Below, one piece after another: positions 13,712 through 59,555 of a stretch of 64,000 nucleotides of DNA (its first letter is position 1; each line of letters begins with the position of its first letter). The position numbers and the translations under genes were made by a program. Origin of the DNA: Bdellovibrio sp. (lineage in GTDB: Bacteria > Bdellovibrionota > Bacteriovoracia > Bacteriovoracales > Bacteriovoracaceae); the NCBI GenBank assembly GCA_016187935.1, contig JACPIU010000014.1:62001-126000 (forward strand). The letters run 5' to 3'. The notes beneath the pieces are model-generated. The model was not told the origin of the DNA and searched no databases. It saw nothing but the letters and a program-made list of their open reading frames with translations.

Positions 13712-14467
13712 TTACTTCCTTGTTTCCATTTGGGAGTTACGGAGAGTATGCCCAGCAACTCGCCCGATACCATCAATGAGTTTGTGGGCAATGCTATTTT
13801 TAGGAATGCTATTCGACATTTTTTTTGCTTGGGCGAGACCTTGAGTCAAGAGGTTTAAGGCCTTGGGGAATCTATGTACCAGTTCTGCATAAAAATCTTT
13901 CAAATCTAAATCCACCACTTCGATGACGAAATTCATGACCGCTTCAGCGATTTGGCAGGTTAAAATGATGGAGCGCAATCTCAGCACTCTCGGCCGCATT
14001 TCATCATCTCCCCGTTCTTTGGCGAGCGCCAAGAGACGTTCCGCCATCTTGCGAAAATCCACCACTTCTTTCTGTTCCCTTTTTCTAAAAACAGTAGCGG
14101 CGATGCTCAAGCTATCTTCTTTGGCCTGATGCAATCGTTGTCGCCGGGCCTCCTGCCCCGATATCCTTTGGGCCTCAGCACTAACAAAATTGTTCGTTGT
14201 GCCCAATTTCTGTCGGGTATCCCGAGAGGTGATGGTTTCTACCGCCCCAAAGTGGGTAAGGGAGCGGAGTGCATTACTAACAGCGCTTTGCGAAAGACCC
14301 AAGCGTTCTTCAATTTGCTCGCTCGTGAGAGGAGTATTAGAAAGAACCAGTAAACCGTAGACTGATCCTTCGATTCGCTTGAGGCCGATTTGTTCCAGAA
14401 AGTTCTCAAACTCCGGAAGATAGGCGAGAAATTCTTGGTTTTCATCCTTTTCACTGATGACCGACAT
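13712..14467 (-). CDS. GbsR/MarR-type winged-helix transcriptional regulator
   Basis: A 251-residue protein, first gene of the ole operon. The start at 14467 has AAGGA about 9 bases upstream; a GTG six bases earlier is closer to the site than normal. Residues about 25-95 form a winged helix-turn-helix with the recognition segment GLSQSAVSNALRSL, as in GbsR-like regulators. A long helical C-terminal region (residues 105-250) probably forms a dimer or ligand domain. It likely autoregulates the ole operon by binding the 14468-14600 intergenic region. The ligand is not evident. Confidence 0.82.
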   Translation of the reverse strand: MSVISEKDENQEFLAYLPEFENFLEQIGLKRIEGSVYGLLVLSNTPLTSEQIEERLGLSQSAVSNALRSLTHFGAVETITSRDTRQKLGTTNNFVSAEAQRISGQEARRQRLHQAKEDSLSIAATVFRKREQKEVVDFRKMAERLLALAKERGDDEMRPRVLRLRSIILTCQIAEAVMNFVIEVVDLDLKDFYAELVHRFPKALNLLTQGLAQAKKMSNSIPKNSIAHKLIDGIGRVAGHTLRNSQMETRK

Positions 14468-14600
14468 AACCACGATTCCTTTTGAGCAAAAATAGAAGGA
14501 TTCCGTTTATTACATTTATGAAATATTCGAGATACAGTAATGGAGGGCCTTAATTGTGTCTAGAGTAATTTTCTCAAAAAATCCAACTCAATGAAGTAAA

Positions 14601-29293: not shown

Positions 29294-29444
29294 TGTCGTC
29301 GGGCATCCTGCCCTCCGCCCTTCGGGCAGCTATGCTGACTTTTTTGGCCGTCATGGCCAAAAAATGTCGTCGGGCCCCTGCCCTCCGCCCTTCGGGCAGC
29401 TATGCTGACTTTTTTGGCCGTCATGGCCAAAAAATGTCGTCGGG
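29294..29444 (+). repeat. palindromic intergenic repeat cluster A (two units plus a third start)
   Basis: Two direct units of about 70 bp (29294-29364 and 29365-29434) are followed by the first ten bases of a third (29435-29444). Each unit begins TGTCGTCGGG, contains GCCC-TTC-GGGC and CAGC-TAT-GCTG mini-hairpins, and ends in a perfect 10-bp hairpin with arms TTTTTTGGCC and GGCCAAAAAA around GTCAT. Relatives occur at 53042-53326 and, inverted, at 59411-59555. Short open frames here are by-products of the repeat. Confidence 0.9.
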
Positions 29445-37644: not shown

Positions 37645-39531
37645 ATGTTTCGTGAGATATTTAATTGCGTTCCTGAAGCGATATACGTCATTGATTTATC
37701 CGCTGAGGGAGTCCCCGGTCTGTTCATTAAAGTTAATGACGGGGCCTGTAAAATGTTAGGGTATTCACAGGAAGAATTTCTGTCGATGTCGCTTAAAGAC
37801 CTTTATCCTGGGAAAAATTTAAAAGATCACGAGATTTTATCACCAGAGTTGCTTTCGAAGGGCAAATGGCAGGAAGAGGGGCATCATATTGCCAAGGATG
37901 GCACAAGCATTGCTGTCGCAGTCAATGTCCATATGCTCAACATAGATCATTGCAAGCGTTTAGTTGTCATCGCGCGAGACATCACCGATCGTTCTCGCGC
38001 CCGTGAGCTCTTGCAAGAAAGGGAATACTTTTTTAGAGAATCACAAAAGGCCGCATTAATAGGTTCTTACAAAACTGACTTTATCAAGGGATTTTGGGAA
38101 TCATCTGAAGTTCTCGATCAGATTTTTGGCATTGATCAGAGCTACAATCGAAGTGTTCAAGGATGGCTCGAATTAGTTTATCCCGATGATCGAGAAATGA
38201 TGGCGCAATATTTGAACGATCAGGTCATAGCTAAACGGAAACCTTTTAACAAAGAATATAGGGTTATACGTAAATCAGATGGTGAAATGCGATGGGTGAA
38301 CGGTTTCGGGCAAGTCACTTTTGACAATAATGGCAATATTCTTTCAATGATCGGCACCATCCAAGATATCTCTGAGCGCAAGAAAGTCGAGGAGGAAAAA
38401 CTTAATATCCAGACCCAGCTCATCCACTCATCCAAGTTGGCTTCGATCGGAACTCTGGCGGCAGGCGTGGCGCATGAAATCAACAATCCGCTGGCGATTA
38501 TTTCGGGCTATGCGGAAATTATGAAGCAAAAATGCAAAGAACTTTGCCTGCAAGGTGATACTGAGTTGATACAAAAAATTATTAAGGCAAGCGCCAGAAT
38601 TGCCGAGATTGTCAGCGGCCTAAGAACTTACGCCAGACAGGATAGTGAAACGGTCGATGATATCGATCTCCATGTCTGTATCAATGAGACCTTATCGCTC
38701 GTTAAAGGTATCTATGAGAAAGAAAACATTAAAATAGAGACTCATCTCAATGCCATGGATTTTATATTGAAAGCTAATATGGGAAAGCTGCAACAAGTAA
38801 TCCTTAATATTCTTGGAAATGCCAAGGACGCCTTGGATAAAAGAAAGAATGGCCTTATCACAATTACCACTCAAAATAATCATGATGATTTACTTCTCAT
38901 AATTTCGGATAATGGCTGTGGAATTCCAAAGCCATTGATCTCGCAAATATTTGATCCATTTTTTACCACCAAAGAACCAGGGAAAGGTACTGGGCTTGGC
39001 CTATCAATTTGTCATACAATCATCACCGCTTTTGGCGGTTCGATAAACGTAGAAAGTGGGCCAAATATCGGTTCTTCATTTAAGATTCTTCTGCCTAGCA
39101 ATCGGAATATAATGCCAGCGAGTGAAAGGATTTTACATCTTAACGAAGAACATTGTTTTTCAGGAAAGGTGCTCGTCGTTGATGATGAGGAGAACATTCG
39201 AGATATTCTTGCCGTTCATTTATCTTCATTGGGTTTCATTGTCGCCTTGGCCGAGAATGGCGAAAGTGCCTATCACATGATTTTAAAAAATCATTATGAT
39301 TATGTTATCACTGACATGCAAATGCCGCGAATGAACGGCGATGAATTACTTCATAGAATAAAATCAGAGAAGCGTGCTGACAGGACTAAATTTCTGGTTA
39401 TTACCGGCCGTCCTTTTGCGGAATATCCCTTGGAACTGAGACAATCCTTGGAAGGCACAGTTGACGGATATATTTCCAAGCCTTTTCAAAAACGTGACTT
39501 AATCAACTCGTTTAAATCAATTATGAAATAA
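37645..39531 (+). CDS. PAS-PAS hybrid sensor histidine kinase with receiver domain
   Basis: A 628-residue protein from ATG 37645, preferred because AAGGAG lies 6 bases upstream. Domains in order: PAS (about residues 5-120), PAS with PAC (about 135-255), a HisKA helix with GVAHEINNP (His277), an HATPase domain with [17 protein letters not shown] and [10 protein letters not shown], and a C-terminal receiver (from about residue 507) with VDDEEN and phospho-acceptor Asp557 in VITDMQMP. There is no membrane segment or signal, so it is a cytoplasmic sensor. No response regulator gene sits beside it. The PAS ligand is unknown. Confidence 0.95.
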
Positions 39532-53041: not shown

Positions 53042-53326
53042 TGTCGTCGGCCTCCTGGCCTCCGCCCTTCGGGCAGTTTTGCTGACAATTTTGGGATGTC
53101 ATGGCCAAAGTTTGTCGTCGGCCTCCTGGCCTCCGCCCTTCGGGCAGCTTCGCTGACAAAATTGGCCGTCATGGCCAATTTTTGTCGTGGGCGGATCTGG
53201 TGTTTGTCCTGTGGGGAGGTTTTGCTGACAATTTTGGGACGTCATGGCCAAAGTTTGTCGTCGGCCTCCTGGCCTCCGCCCTGCGGGCAGCTTCGCTGAC
53301 AAAATTGGCCGTCATGGCCAATTTTT
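53042..53326 (+). repeat. palindromic intergenic repeat cluster B (four direct units)
   Basis: Four direct units of about 70 bp start near 53042, 53113, 53183 and 53256, each with a TGTCGT(C/G)GG head, a GCCC-TTC/TGC-GGGC hairpin (weaker in the third), a CAG(C/T)...GCTG hairpin and a terminal GGCC hairpin. Units 1 and 3 end in an imperfect hairpin (ATTTTGGG...GGCCAAAG) and units 2 and 4 in a perfect one with arms AAAATTGGCC and GGCCAATTTT. No convincing gene lies inside; open frames on both strands are repeat artefacts. Confidence 0.92.
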
Positions 53327-56112: not shown

Positions 56113-57282
56113 TCAATCTTCTCTACCCATATCATCTCCGCGATTTTCTGTACCATAGTGTTGAAGAAAATTTTTTTTGTACTCTATGAATTTATTTTCC
56201 AGAATGGCAGTTCGAGCATTGATTGCCATGGTCCGATAGAAGGCGATGTTATGAGTTGTGGCCAGGATGGCGGCCAAGATTTCATTGCTATCAAAAAGGT
56301 GTTTTAAATAAGCGCGTGAGAAGTTTTTACACACATAACAGTCACAACTGGGATCAATGGGATAAAAATCTCGCCGATAATTGCGATGACGGATGCGAAG
56401 GCGACCACGAGTGGTGTATAGGGTACCGCCACGGGCATATTTAGTAGGAATAATGCAATCGGACATATCGATCCCATATTCCCAAATCATGAGGAGATCT
56501 TGGGGATGTCCGACTCCCATGACATAGCGAGGTCGGTCCTTCGGCATGAGAGGGGCGGTATACGAAACTGCCTTTTCCATGAGATCTGGACCTTCACCCA
56601 CCGAAACCCCTCCGATGGCGTAACCCGGCAGATTTTTAGAGCAGACTTCTTCAACACATCTTTTGCGGTGGTCATCATAAGTGCCGCCTTGAATGATCCC
56701 AAAAAGAGAGCAATCCGGTCTTGACCAGGCCTTGACGCAACGATCAAGCCAGCGATGGGTGCGTGCAATGGATTTTTCAACGTAGGCCGAGGTCGCGGGA
56801 TAGGGGATACACTCATCAAAGGCCATCATAATATCTGAGCCGAGAGATTCTTGGGTCATAATAGAAATTTCAGGCGATAACAGAACCGTTTTACCTTCTA
56901 AATTTTTAAATTCGGCACCTTCTTCTTTGATGCTTTTTTTTTGCAAGCTGAACACTTGAAATCCACCCGAATCTGTCAAAATGCTCCGGGGCCATGCCAT
57001 GAATTTATGAAGACCTCCGGCCTTTTTAATTAACTCAGGCCCTGGGGTGAGGTAAAGATGGTAGGTGTTGGATAAAATAATTCGAATATCCTGATCAATC
57101 AGCTCACGCGGTTGGAGTGCCTTAATTGCAGCATGGGTACCGACAGGCATAAAAACAGGTGTTGGGATATCACCATGAGGCGTATGAATGATGCCGGCGC
57201 GAGCGCCACAATTTTTATCTTCATGGAGAAGTTCAAACTTGAAATGTTCACGATTTTGTTGCTGAATATTTTCTATGCTCAT
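56113..57282 (-). CDS. tgt: tRNA-guanine transglycosylase (queuine/preQ1 insertion)
   Basis: A 389-residue bacterial Tgt. The catalytic Asp104 lies in LTDSGGFQVFS; GIIQGG and the YAIGGVSVGE loop bind the base; DCIIPTKYARGGT holds the second catalytic Asp; the zinc site is CDCYVCKNFSRAYLKHL. It exchanges guanine at tRNA position 34 for preQ1 on the route to queuosine. Its start overlaps the FHA-RDD gene's stop by four bases. queE, an earlier step, is elsewhere in the window. Confidence 0.97.
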   Translation of the reverse strand: MSIENIQQQNREHFKFELLHEDKNCGARAGIIHTPHGDIPTPVFMPVGTHAAIKALQPRELIDQDIRIILSNTYHLYLTPGPELIKKAGGLHKFMAWPRSILTDSGGFQVFSLQKKSIKEEGAEFKNLEGKTVLLSPEISIMTQESLGSDIMMAFDECIPYPATSAYVEKSIARTHRWLDRCVKAWSRPDCSLFGIIQGGTYDDHRKRCVEEVCSKNLPGYAIGGVSVGEGPDLMEKAVSYTAPLMPKDRPRYVMGVGHPQDLLMIWEYGIDMSDCIIPTKYARGGTLYTTRGRLRIRHRNYRRDFYPIDPSCDCYVCKNFSRAYLKHLFDSNEILAAILATTHNIAFYRTMAINARTAILENKFIEYKKNFLQHYGTENRGDDMGRED

Positions 57283-59387
57283 AATTTATTGAACTCATCC
57301 AAGGTCTTCTGCCAGATTTTAACCGCCACTTTGTCTTTAGGTTTTGGAGGAACTAGCTTTTTCCAACGATTATGCAAAAAAGTTTTTGCCTCTTGCCAAC
57401 TCTTGCTCACTGCCCCCGCGGCTTCGGTTTTCACCGCTGCGTTCTTCAGCATTTTCATGGCCGCAGTGACTCGTTGAATATCGGCCAGGGTTTCTGTATT
57501 TGGCGGTTCGAGCATGTAATTCATCATGAACAAAGTTGATTCCGGGAGGGTGATTGGCGTCTGTTCCATGATTTTCATTTCTTTCTTGAAGCGCATGGTT
57601 CGTAATATCTTACTGACAATGCTAATAGCAAAGCCAGCTGATTCTTGATTGTGCTCAAGGATGAAGGAAGGAAAAGATTGATCGAGATTCCAAAGGAAAA
57701 TATGATTTTGCTCCTTCAGCTCACTTTCTCTTATGGCCCACATGTCGGTTTTGCCTGTGGGGAGGCGGAAAACTTCCGGTCGTCCCTGTAGATGAAATTG
57801 CTCTTTTAATTGTTGGCGCAATTTTGTCAGACCGTAGGTAAAAGGACCGAATTCCAGAGTGTAATCAAGGTAATTATCCAATCGGATTGAGAAGGCAAAG
57901 CCTAAAATAGTATCGTGCAAGAGATGATCGCCGGGAGAGTTTTTACTTATATTGGGATGAAGAAATGGCAGAATGGGATTTGCCAGAGGGAAATGGGCAA
58001 AGGAAAAGGCCGGGGGAATTGCGCGTTTGATTCGAATTTGTTGGTTCTTTTTAACATCGATAAGAAGTAACGTTGACTCGGCTGCTTTCTCTGGATTCAT
58101 GAGTGGTAGTATGATGAGATCCGGATCTTTTGGTAATTCCAAGGCCGCCGAAAAAAACAGCGACTCGAGTTTTACCGTGCCAGCTGGGGTCTGACGGACG
58201 GGAGGTGTACTGACTTGCCAAGGTCCCTCCCAAAAATCAGGGTCTAAAAAGAGGGCAGAGATAGGGGCCAAGATCGCCACCAATGGCACGATTAAAAAGG
58301 TTCCGAGAAATCTTCTGACCGCGCTTTTCGAATACGGATGTGAAGCGGTTAAAATCTCCTTTAATGTTCGCAGACCAACAATGGGAAGCAATTCGCCGAT
58401 GACCGTGGCACAAGATAATGGCCAGAAGAATAAACGCCCGATGGCCTTCAGACGTTTGATTACAAATGAATCATCCGTTTCAATACCAATCAGAACATGT
58501 CCAAATGATGATCCAGCAAGCAGATGTGAAAGGACTTCTAGTGTCATAAAAGCCAAGATAAACGCCAAGAGCTGTGTTGATAACAATTCTTGCAACAAGA
58601 TCAGATGGTTCTTAAAGTTTGGATAGAGAGTCATAAGGGCGGAAATTTTTTGGGATAAAACTTGCATTAGAAATGTCAGTTCGGCATTTTCAAAAACCAA
58701 AGCATCCATTTTTTGCCATGGTAAAATTCCAAAGAGTACGAGATAGATAAGTCCCAGAGTTCCAGGTAGGCCAAAGGCCCTGAGAATAGGACCGGGCGGG
58801 GATGGATGAGTGGAAGCCTTGGGTTTGTAATGTCCTTGTTTCGGGAGTTTTTTGTCGCTCTCCTTTGTTGATAACGAGGTGTTCGCTTTGTTTCTTGTAA
58901 AGAGAGCTTTTAATTTACCAAAAAATCCCCGTTTCGCGGATTGCTCCTGCTTGTTCTTTTCCAATTCATCCTTGTATTGAAGAATGCTTTTAACATTCGT
59001 CTTGGGAGTCTCCAGTTCATGCTCTTCGACTTCATCACGACGTATGATGATGTCTAGTTGACCCATGACGAGTTTGTCACCCTTGTCTAGAATATACATT
59101 CTTCCAGGTGCCAATTCTTTGCCATTGAGCTGTGTTTCGGGTGAGAAATTATGCATGCTCAAAACACCATTAGCGATGCGAAAAATGGCATGTTTTGCTA
59201 ACAGTCCACGTCCTTTAATTTGAACATCGGCATTTTCATGTTGGCCCATGACGAGTTTGCCACGCACTTGAATTCGCTGGGGAGGAGAGTCGGGAATACG
59301 GACATCCAAGAGATAAACGACTTGTTTACCTCCTTCTTCGGTACCTGAAAAATCCAACGGATCGTCTTCTGTTACTTTTTTAACCAT
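57279..59387 (-). CDS. FHA-domain and RDD-like multi-pass membrane protein
   Basis: A 702-residue protein. An FHA domain (about residues 35-115: KLVMGQHENADVQIKGRGLLAKHAIF) suggests binding of phosphothreonine peptides. A basic linker follows, then hydrophobic segments (about residues 200-370) with an RDD-like part (SSFGHVLIGIETDDSFVIKRLKAIGRLFF), and a C-terminal soluble region with a beta-rich and helical make-up ending at residue 702. It is in one operon with tgt (four-base overlap), an unusual pairing with no obvious functional link. It is flanked by an inverted repeat cluster upstream. Confidence 0.82.
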   Translation of the reverse strand: MVKKVTEDDPLDFSGTEEGGKQVVYLLDVRIPDSPPQRIQVRGKLVMGQHENADVQIKGRGLLAKHAIFRIANGVLSMHNFSPETQLNGKELAPGRMYILDKGDKLVMGQLDIIIRRDEVEEHELETPKTNVKSILQYKDELEKNKQEQSAKRGFFGKLKALFTRNKANTSLSTKESDKKLPKQGHYKPKASTHPSPPGPILRAFGLPGTLGLIYLVLFGILPWQKMDALVFENAELTFLMQVLSQKISALMTLYPNFKNHLILLQELLSTQLLAFILAFMTLEVLSHLLAGSSFGHVLIGIETDDSFVIKRLKAIGRLFFWPLSCATVIGELLPIVGLRTLKEILTASHPYSKSAVRRFLGTFLIVPLVAILAPISALFLDPDFWEGPWQVSTPPVRQTPAGTVKLESLFFSAALELPKDPDLIILPLMNPEKAAESTLLLIDVKKNQQIRIKRAIPPAFSFAHFPLANPILPFLHPNISKNSPGDHLLHDTILGFAFSIRLDNYLDYTLEFGPFTYGLTKLRQQLKEQFHLQGRPEVFRLPTGKTDMWAIRESELKEQNHIFLWNLDQSFPSFILEHNQESAGFAISIVSKILRTMRFKKEMKIMEQTPITLPESTLFMMNYMLEPPNTETLADIQRVTAAMKMLKNAAVKTEAAGAVSKSWQEAKTFLHNRWKKLVPPKPKDKVAVKIWQKTLDEFNKL

Positions 59388-59410
59388 AAAATAATTTACT
59401 CTATCTTCTC

Positions 59411-59555
59411 AAAAATTGGCCATGACGGCCAATTTTGTCAGCGTAAGCTGCCCGAAGGGCGGAGGCCAGGAGGCCGACGGCAAACTTTGGCCATGACGTC
59501 CAAAAATTGCAACGAAACTGCCCGCAGGGCAAAGACCAGAACTGCCCCAAAGGGA
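59411..59555 (-). repeat. palindromic intergenic repeat cluster C (two units, inverted)
   Basis: Read on the minus strand, a divergent unit (59555 to 59485) with an imperfect terminal hairpin is followed by a standard unit (59482 to 59411) with perfect arms AAAATTGGCC and GGCCAATTTT. The divergent unit shares CTGGT.TTTG.CCTG and TTTTGG.ACGTC features with the third unit of cluster B. The cluster separates the FHA gene from the DEAD-box gene. Confidence 0.88.

Follow-up and report, generated by a model that had tools for sequence, protein, structure and literature searches.

Four-hairpin tandem units of a Bdellovibrio sp. genome are copies of a phylum-wide non-coding element that may be mobile and aimed at tRNA genes

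What are the approximately 70-bp repeats that recur at three loci of this Bdellovibrio sp. contig, and how did they come to be there? A sequence-only reading had placed such units, with common heads and hairpins, at 29.3, 53.0–53.3, and 59.4–59.6 kb of the window (the whole 64-kb stretch analyzed here, C48:62001–126000 of a 48-contig, 4.40-Mb draft genome) and had taken them for a REP-like family. The units were indeed found at these positions. They were 70–71 bp each and followed one another head-to-tail with a spacing of 70–73 bp, and their general order was a head (TGTCGTCGG), the hairpins H1, H2, and H3, the trinucleotide GAC, and a terminal hairpin, H4. H1 had the form GGCC-TCCT-GGCC or GGGC-ATCCT-GCCC, H2 the form GCCC-TTC-GGGC, and H3 the form AGC-TTC-GCT; H4 was AAAATTGGCC-GTCAT-GGCCAATTTT or a variant of it. 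The complete window units folded into all four hairpins or most of them.

The first array (29294–29434, plus strand) consisted of two units. Unit 1 (29294–29364) had the head TGTCGTCGG and the complete fold, comprising H1 GGGC-ATCCT-GCCC, H2 GCCC-TTC-GGGC, H3 AGC-TAT-GCT, and H4 TTTTTTGGCC-GTCAT-GGCCAAAAAA (29340–29364). Unit 2 (29365–29434; H4 at 29410–29434) had the same anatomy, with 68 nt identical between the two, and was directly followed by a leftover head, TGTCGTCGGG, at 29435–29444. The second array (53042–53325, plus strand) contained four units: one with a damaged H4 (AATTTTGGGA/GGCCAAAGTT; 53042–53112), a complete one (53113–53182) with H4 AAAATTGGCC-GTCAT-GGCCAATTTT at 53158–53182, a decayed one in which H1 and H2 were broken (53183–53255), and a second complete one (53256–53325; H4 at 53301–53325) having 97% identity with 53113–53182. 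The third array (59408–59550, minus strand) paired a complete unit (59408–59478; H4 at 59412–59436) with a decayed one carrying damaged arms (59479–59550), and some 25 nt separated the H4 of the complete unit from the start of the downstream gene for a 702-aa protein (57279–59387, minus strand). In the folds of the 29.3- and 53-kb arrays, the right arm of one H4 could also pair with the left arm of the following H4, so that H1–H3 were enclosed. A weak, decayed ninth copy (14134–14214, plus strand; E 6.8e-4 for the genome) fell within a minus-strand ORF (13712–14473) for a TrmB/MarR-like regulator, where it occupied codons 87–114, perhaps as an in-frame insertion.

The head sequence TGTCGTCGG occurred eight times in the window versus 0.20 expected from shuffles; five of the eight occurrences were at unit starts, and one was the leftover head at 29435. 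This excess, together with the covariation test described below, ruled out chance palindromes as the source of the units. The genes adjoining the window arrays were ordinary, encoding a cyclic-nucleotide-binding protein, a pyridine nucleotide-disulphide oxidoreductase, a DEAD helicase, and other proteins without a Pfam match. Carriage by phages or plasmids was likewise discarded, as the 29.3-kb array had no phage match and the 53-kb array no plasmid match; in addition, strict patterns found no exact match among viral contigs.

The claim that the repeats have been changing in a compensatory manner was examined in 18 aligned, distinct units from this genus, for which we set the structure ourselves (360 pair cells). 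Standard pairs filled 93.1% of the cells, compared with a mean of 80.6% after shuffling (none of 500 shuffles as high) and 26–56% when the partners were slid. The covariation score was 0.292 versus 0.119 in shuffled alignments (0/500 as high) and 0.10–0.11, at most 0.108, with partners slid by one column. The number of pairs changed on both sides (8 versus 6.6 shuffled; 89/500 as high) was, as a measure alone, not significant. These two-sided changes were located in H1, H3, and H4, and none was in H2. Thus, the GCCC/GGGC stem of H2, which had been cited as maintained while its loop changes, lent no covariation support; instead, H1 covaried too (GGGC/GCCC versus GGCC/GGCC). Regarding the terminal hairpin, its arms did differ between loci as proposed (TTTTTTGGCC/GGCCAAAAAA at 29.3 kb versus AAAATTGGCC/GGCCAATTTT at 53 and 59 kb), but perfect pairing did not extend to every unit, since those starting at 53042, 53183, and 59479 carry damaged arms.

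We also compared pairing across genera in 28 elements, whose arms were cut by eye because MAFFT failed to register the 4-nt and 5-nt H4 loops together. The decayed or truncated units (53183, 59479, C2b, C2c, C47, window 14134, and C30 of sister species G002), the near-identical array mates (29365, 53256, C39b, and C39c), and copies added to the collection later were not part of this set. Pairing was found in 253/267 cells of H4 versus a fraction of 0.52 with arms swapped between elements, in 75/75 cells of H3 versus 0.70, in 63/64 cells of the plain type of H1 versus 0.76, and in 32/33 cells of its internal-loop type versus 0.63. None of 20,000 swapped-arm controls was as high in each case over all rows, although H1 was weak within the genus on distinct arm pairs (1667/20,000). 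Since cutting by hand favors pairing, the alignment-based genus test is the firmer of the two. The second H1 type, present in other genera, reads NNN-TMC-GC-ATCCT-GC-TMC-N'N'N', and its outer three pairs change together. Wobble pairs were rare (G.T in 2/301 cells and A.C in 2/301), and therefore pairing at the DNA level is favored. Loops were maintained while stems varied: TCC (GGA on the opposite strand) was present in 37/40 H1 loops, and TC[AC] in 30/31 H4 loops read by eye. Both tests thus bore out a repeat family with pairing kept by paired changes, and hence selection on folding.

A BLAST search of this genome with one unit as the query yielded 17 matches (E 1e-3 or better). The covariance model R1, trained solely on 19 units from this genus, identified 16 clear units at eight genome loci (E 5e-8 or better), seven of them in the window; this figure is a count and no test, as the matched sequences had trained R1. 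The array on C39 is partly masked by a run of N. Two BLAST copies were found in each of the sister species G001 and G002, and 56 of the 58 genomes searched had none; a pattern scan of genome contigs with near records left out gave no match. When R1 was run over 129 genomes of the family, 13 matched, and this genus-only model reached other genera with E-values of 6e-15 (G006), 1e-9 (G081), and 2e-9 (G101). A broadened model that included relatives, R2, matched 19 of 129 genomes of the order (a number equal to the family's) and, at E 1e-4, 60 of 368 genomes and 34 of 181 genera of the phylum; the E-values of both models are approximate. A further R2 match in the window, at 37819 (E 0.004), is within a coding region and looks like a chance match. 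The heads were TGTYGTCGG-like within the genus and varied in other genera. The window unit is one copy of a phylum-wide non-coding element of about 70–110 bp with the order H1-H2-H3-H4, in which the loops are kept and the stems change. Rfam had no match in the window, and at 15 element loci its gathering score was reached by tRNAs and by no element. Our literature search, whose scope most subscription journals lay outside, found no report of these repeats.

Several copies had unusual surroundings. A 55.9-kb contig of genome G065 (C48; L230–L232) carries four copies and has genes resembling those of a mobile replicon, among which DnaB-like, nucleotidyltransferase-like, and WYL-like proteins were recognized by eye. 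Other copies are inside hexamer microsatellites such as CTGTTC repeats (G101 L139–L144 and L242, G139 L214, and G008 L216).

Judged by the genome sequences searched, the family is both phylum-wide and often linked to tRNA genes. We assembled 74 copies, consisting of all 34 R2 order matches outside the genus and G101, the copy on G001:C154, and 39 from families outside f1 and f6, chosen among the matches listed; the window-type units, G101, and f6 were kept apart. In this set, part of which was thus chosen among the matches listed, 40/74 copies followed a tRNA or tmRNA gene on the same strand by no more than 700 bp, no copy (0/74) had any other arrangement within that distance, and 34/74 were not behind a tRNA. 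As a rough expectation, the 700-bp stretches behind 40 genes make up <1% of a 3.5-Mb genome. Twelve gene types had copies: Arg, Ser, Pro, Met, Glu, Gln, Gly, Trp, Ile, Cys, Val, and tmRNA. Among these copies from the matches listed, a copy of the 3′ end of the element's own tRNA abutted H1 in 37/40 (score of at least 9), compared with 7/800 shuffled flanks, and was complete in 15/40, mostly with 19 or 20 nt. The complete copies start at T-loop position 57 or 58 in standard numbering, and positions 58–76 are typical of tRNA-linked elements. The 5′ half of the T-arm of the same tRNA was often found before H4, for example GCCTGTTCA for Gly and GGGAGTTCA for Arg. The typical order on the tRNA strand was accordingly the tRNA gene, a terminator-like hairpin, remains of the T-arm 5′ half, H4-H3-H2-H1, and the tRNA 3′-end copy. 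Since the T-arm 5′ half precedes H4 and the 3′-end copy adjoins H1, the element occupies the T-loop of an incomplete tRNA copy.

The window differs from this arrangement: it contains no tRNA gene, its units have no tRNA tail, and window-type loci had no tRNA nearby. In this genome, 21 tRNA regions gave no model match better than E 0.037; G001 retains a copy at tRNA-Pro. In G101, 1 of 15 examined copies (of 18 matches) was behind a tRNA, and in f6, 0/24; like the 34/74 copies above, these speak against a tRNA link. With no tRNA nearby and ordinary neighbors, the window arrays look like a dispersed, tandemly amplified state of the element. Further repeats were noticed at some tRNA loci. At tRNA-Thr-CGT of this genome (G000 C32; L182), 24 nt of the 3′ end plus the 3′ flank recur 193 bp downstream, with hairpins that match neither model. 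At L201, L203, L146, and L237, a second long inverted repeat of about 100–150 bp, enclosing other sequence, comes immediately after the tRNA and precedes the element, and at L204 (G120 C10) the tRNA-Cys 3′ end, terminator, and hairpins are repeated in tandem.

Comparisons between loci and species gave signs of mobility. Genome G353 has two copies, behind Gln-TTG and Gln-CTG, that are identical over about 110 bp except at two places; the tails show precisely the differences between the two tRNAs, and the flanks are otherwise unrelated. Copies are present at Cys in G120 and at Glu in G121, while their congener G136, a single contig, has no 3′-end copy at either gene. Most of 80 bp of the tRNA 3′ flank was duplicated as well in G120 (score 78/80) and G353 (69/80) and about half of it in G287; of 17 other loci tested, 12 showed no flank copy above the shuffles. 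Conversely, at tRNA-Met of G322 and G050, element and tail are nearly identical and the spacer and outer flanks have diverged, which reflects either selection for function or recent copying. For the window arrays, the only empty-site comparison is a partial one at 59.4 kb: in G002, the promoter of the 702-aa gene retains a diverged H4 plus GTCAGC, the rest of the two units being absent, and in nzgw164 neither H4 nor GTCAGC was recognizable at this locus.

We favor, with a probability of roughly 0.55, a small hairpin-encoded mobile element that targets the T-loops of tRNA genes and that, within this genus, would have colonized intergenic positions and undergone tandem multiplication. Such an element would move without encoding a protein, its folded DNA form being recognized by a putative recombinase acting in trans, and would insert into the T-loop of a tRNA. 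The surviving insertions would be those that also duplicated the tRNA 3′ end and flank, thereby restoring a working tRNA. In this genus, in f6, and in G101, copies would have moved from tRNA genes to intergenic sites, in part to positions just behind terminator hairpins. Copies directly behind a strong hairpin made up 10/23 in f6 (versus 2% in the control) and, among the first or single units of this genus, 3/11 at a lower cut-off (control 2.6%) and 1/11 at stricter ones. At such sites, units may multiply head-to-tail because each H4 presents a similar hairpin end, and tandem duplication would then keep the units of one array alike.

An alternative that we consider unlikely, though the strongest of those weighed, is a functional structured RNA that is read through behind tRNA genes, folds, and receives its tRNA-like 3′ end from tRNA maturation, after the model of the rtT RNA of the E. 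coli tyrT operon. Kept loops on varying stems would suit such an RNA, as would the near-identity of element and tail at tRNA-Met of two species with diverged flanks, but the latter may reflect recent copying. Since AGGA loops occur on the tRNA strand in H1 and often in H4, CsrA could bind, and an RNA sponge for CsrA is possible on the basis of these loop motifs. The csrA gene was present in 17/19 element-bearing genomes searched (13/13 of high quality), but CsrA is common, so that its presence discriminates little, and the H4 loops of this genus have no GGA. Moreover, G.U-type pairs are almost absent on both strands, a terminator-like hairpin separates tRNA from element in most loci inspected, presence varies among congeners, and no Rfam family matches the element. 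A second alternative is a terminator or 3′-end stabilizer cassette, in which H4 would act like a terminator with a T run and tandem units would reinforce termination. H4 is a palindrome of A-tract, G+C stem, and T-tract, and a terminator-like hairpin often precedes f6 copies. Nevertheless, a terminator would serve no purpose between divergent genes, the location of two of the three window arrays, and neither H1–H3 nor the isoacceptor-specific tRNA tails are explained. We consider this explanation improbable, and a terminator-only view was rejected as a misfit with divergent promoters and tRNA tails.

Less probable still are two readings of the head and of H4. H4 could be an operator or promoter module: a regulator would bind the palindrome TTGGCC-N5-GGCCAA, which would overlap with a −35 box and be followed 18 nt later by a −10-like box. 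Solitary H4-like palindromes lie upstream of genes (G000 C31:138204 and C3:67580; G002 C1:136347); by eye, TGN and a TATAAT-like hexamer come at a constant distance after these palindromes and after the units at 59408, C2, and C12, and the H4 at the 702-aa gene is retained, diverged, in G002. Elsewhere, however, the H4 arms vary freely, and such a box is absent after most copies. With up to one mismatch, TTGGCCN5GGCCAA occurs 81, 60, and 66 times in the genus genomes versus 8–22 times in six others; several isolated matches that we inspected read like coding sequence, and the palindrome alone was dropped as a genome-wide operator. An extended −10-like box 18 nt after TTGGCC was observed at window 59408–59436, L102, L110, L097, L071, L009, and L017, which suggests promoters built on H4 at these sites. 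The other reading, prompted by the GTCG head, was that the units are REPs or REPINs mobilized by a RAYT (Y1) transposase. They are short intergenic palindromes with a GTC head, and the genus does encode Y1 transposases: Pfam Y1_Tnp (PF01797) had one match in this genome and four in G002. Yet each of the five genes has, at its borders, exact 13–22-bp inverted repeats unlike the unit, and neither TGTCGTCGG nor an R2 match was present at the five loci; on these grounds a RAYT origin was rejected. In addition, the head is not kept outside the genus, and the copies are few (16), arranged head-to-tail, and built of four hairpins each. These RAYT-like genes (G000 C18:36075, L039; G002 C1:818798, C1:501573, C21:235633, and C1:623292, L040–L043) form a separate repeat system, several of their terminal inverted repeats having GTGCCA in common.

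Small folded mobile repeats of intergenic regions are known; the new part is the tRNA T-loop habit. With less confidence than for the reading we favor, we propose that the family represents an unlisted class of mobile elements: protein-free hairpins of about 100 bp that would insert into the T-loops of many isoacceptors, duplicate the 3′ end of the target and thereby spare the tRNA, occur phylum-wide, and in some lineages escape into intergenic regions and form tandem arrays. A number of the copies beside tRNA genes may by now be conserved RNA genes whose end resembles a tRNA. If this is true, a hairpin-only element uses essential tRNA genes as its target and yet leaves them intact, and repeats that resemble unrelated REPs in different genera have a common origin. 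Because the tails match their isoacceptors, the insertion step can be put to a test. Known systems share parts of this picture. CGTC-tagged REPs have a CGTC or TGTC head, a 4–5-nt loop, one 8–9-bp stem that usually starts in AT, and a CCA tail; most form head-to-head dimers, and no dedicated transposase has been found for them (PMC3733652). Our units are likewise short palindromic repeats with 4–5-nt loops for which no dedicated transposase was found, but they have four hairpins, a 4-bp H1 beginning with G+C, head-to-tail arrays, and a tRNA link. The CGTC/TGTC head resembles that of the genus units, where it is unpaired; in other genera it is not kept. GTAG REPs and REPINs with RAYT are likewise non-autonomous, folded, and intergenic, but our units have no GTAG head and the RAYT-like genes of the genus bear other ends. 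Elements that tyrosine recombinases integrate into tRNA or tmRNA genes have the same T-loop junction and direct repeat of the tRNA 3′ end; they are kilobases long, whereas the present element is about 100 bp and one family serves many tRNA types with tails matching the target. The rtT repeats of the E. coli tyrT operon are tandem units behind a tRNA gene, and each of them includes some 19 bp from the 3′ end of the tRNA; to our knowledge, their origin is unexplained. They resemble the tRNA-linked relatives, not the window units, in having a tRNA 3′-end copy behind the gene (37/40 among the matches listed). Unlike them, the present family has one hairpin core common to many tRNA types and genera, is found away from tRNAs too, and has no Rfam match; if our reading is true, it offers a natural comparison for the rtT repeats.
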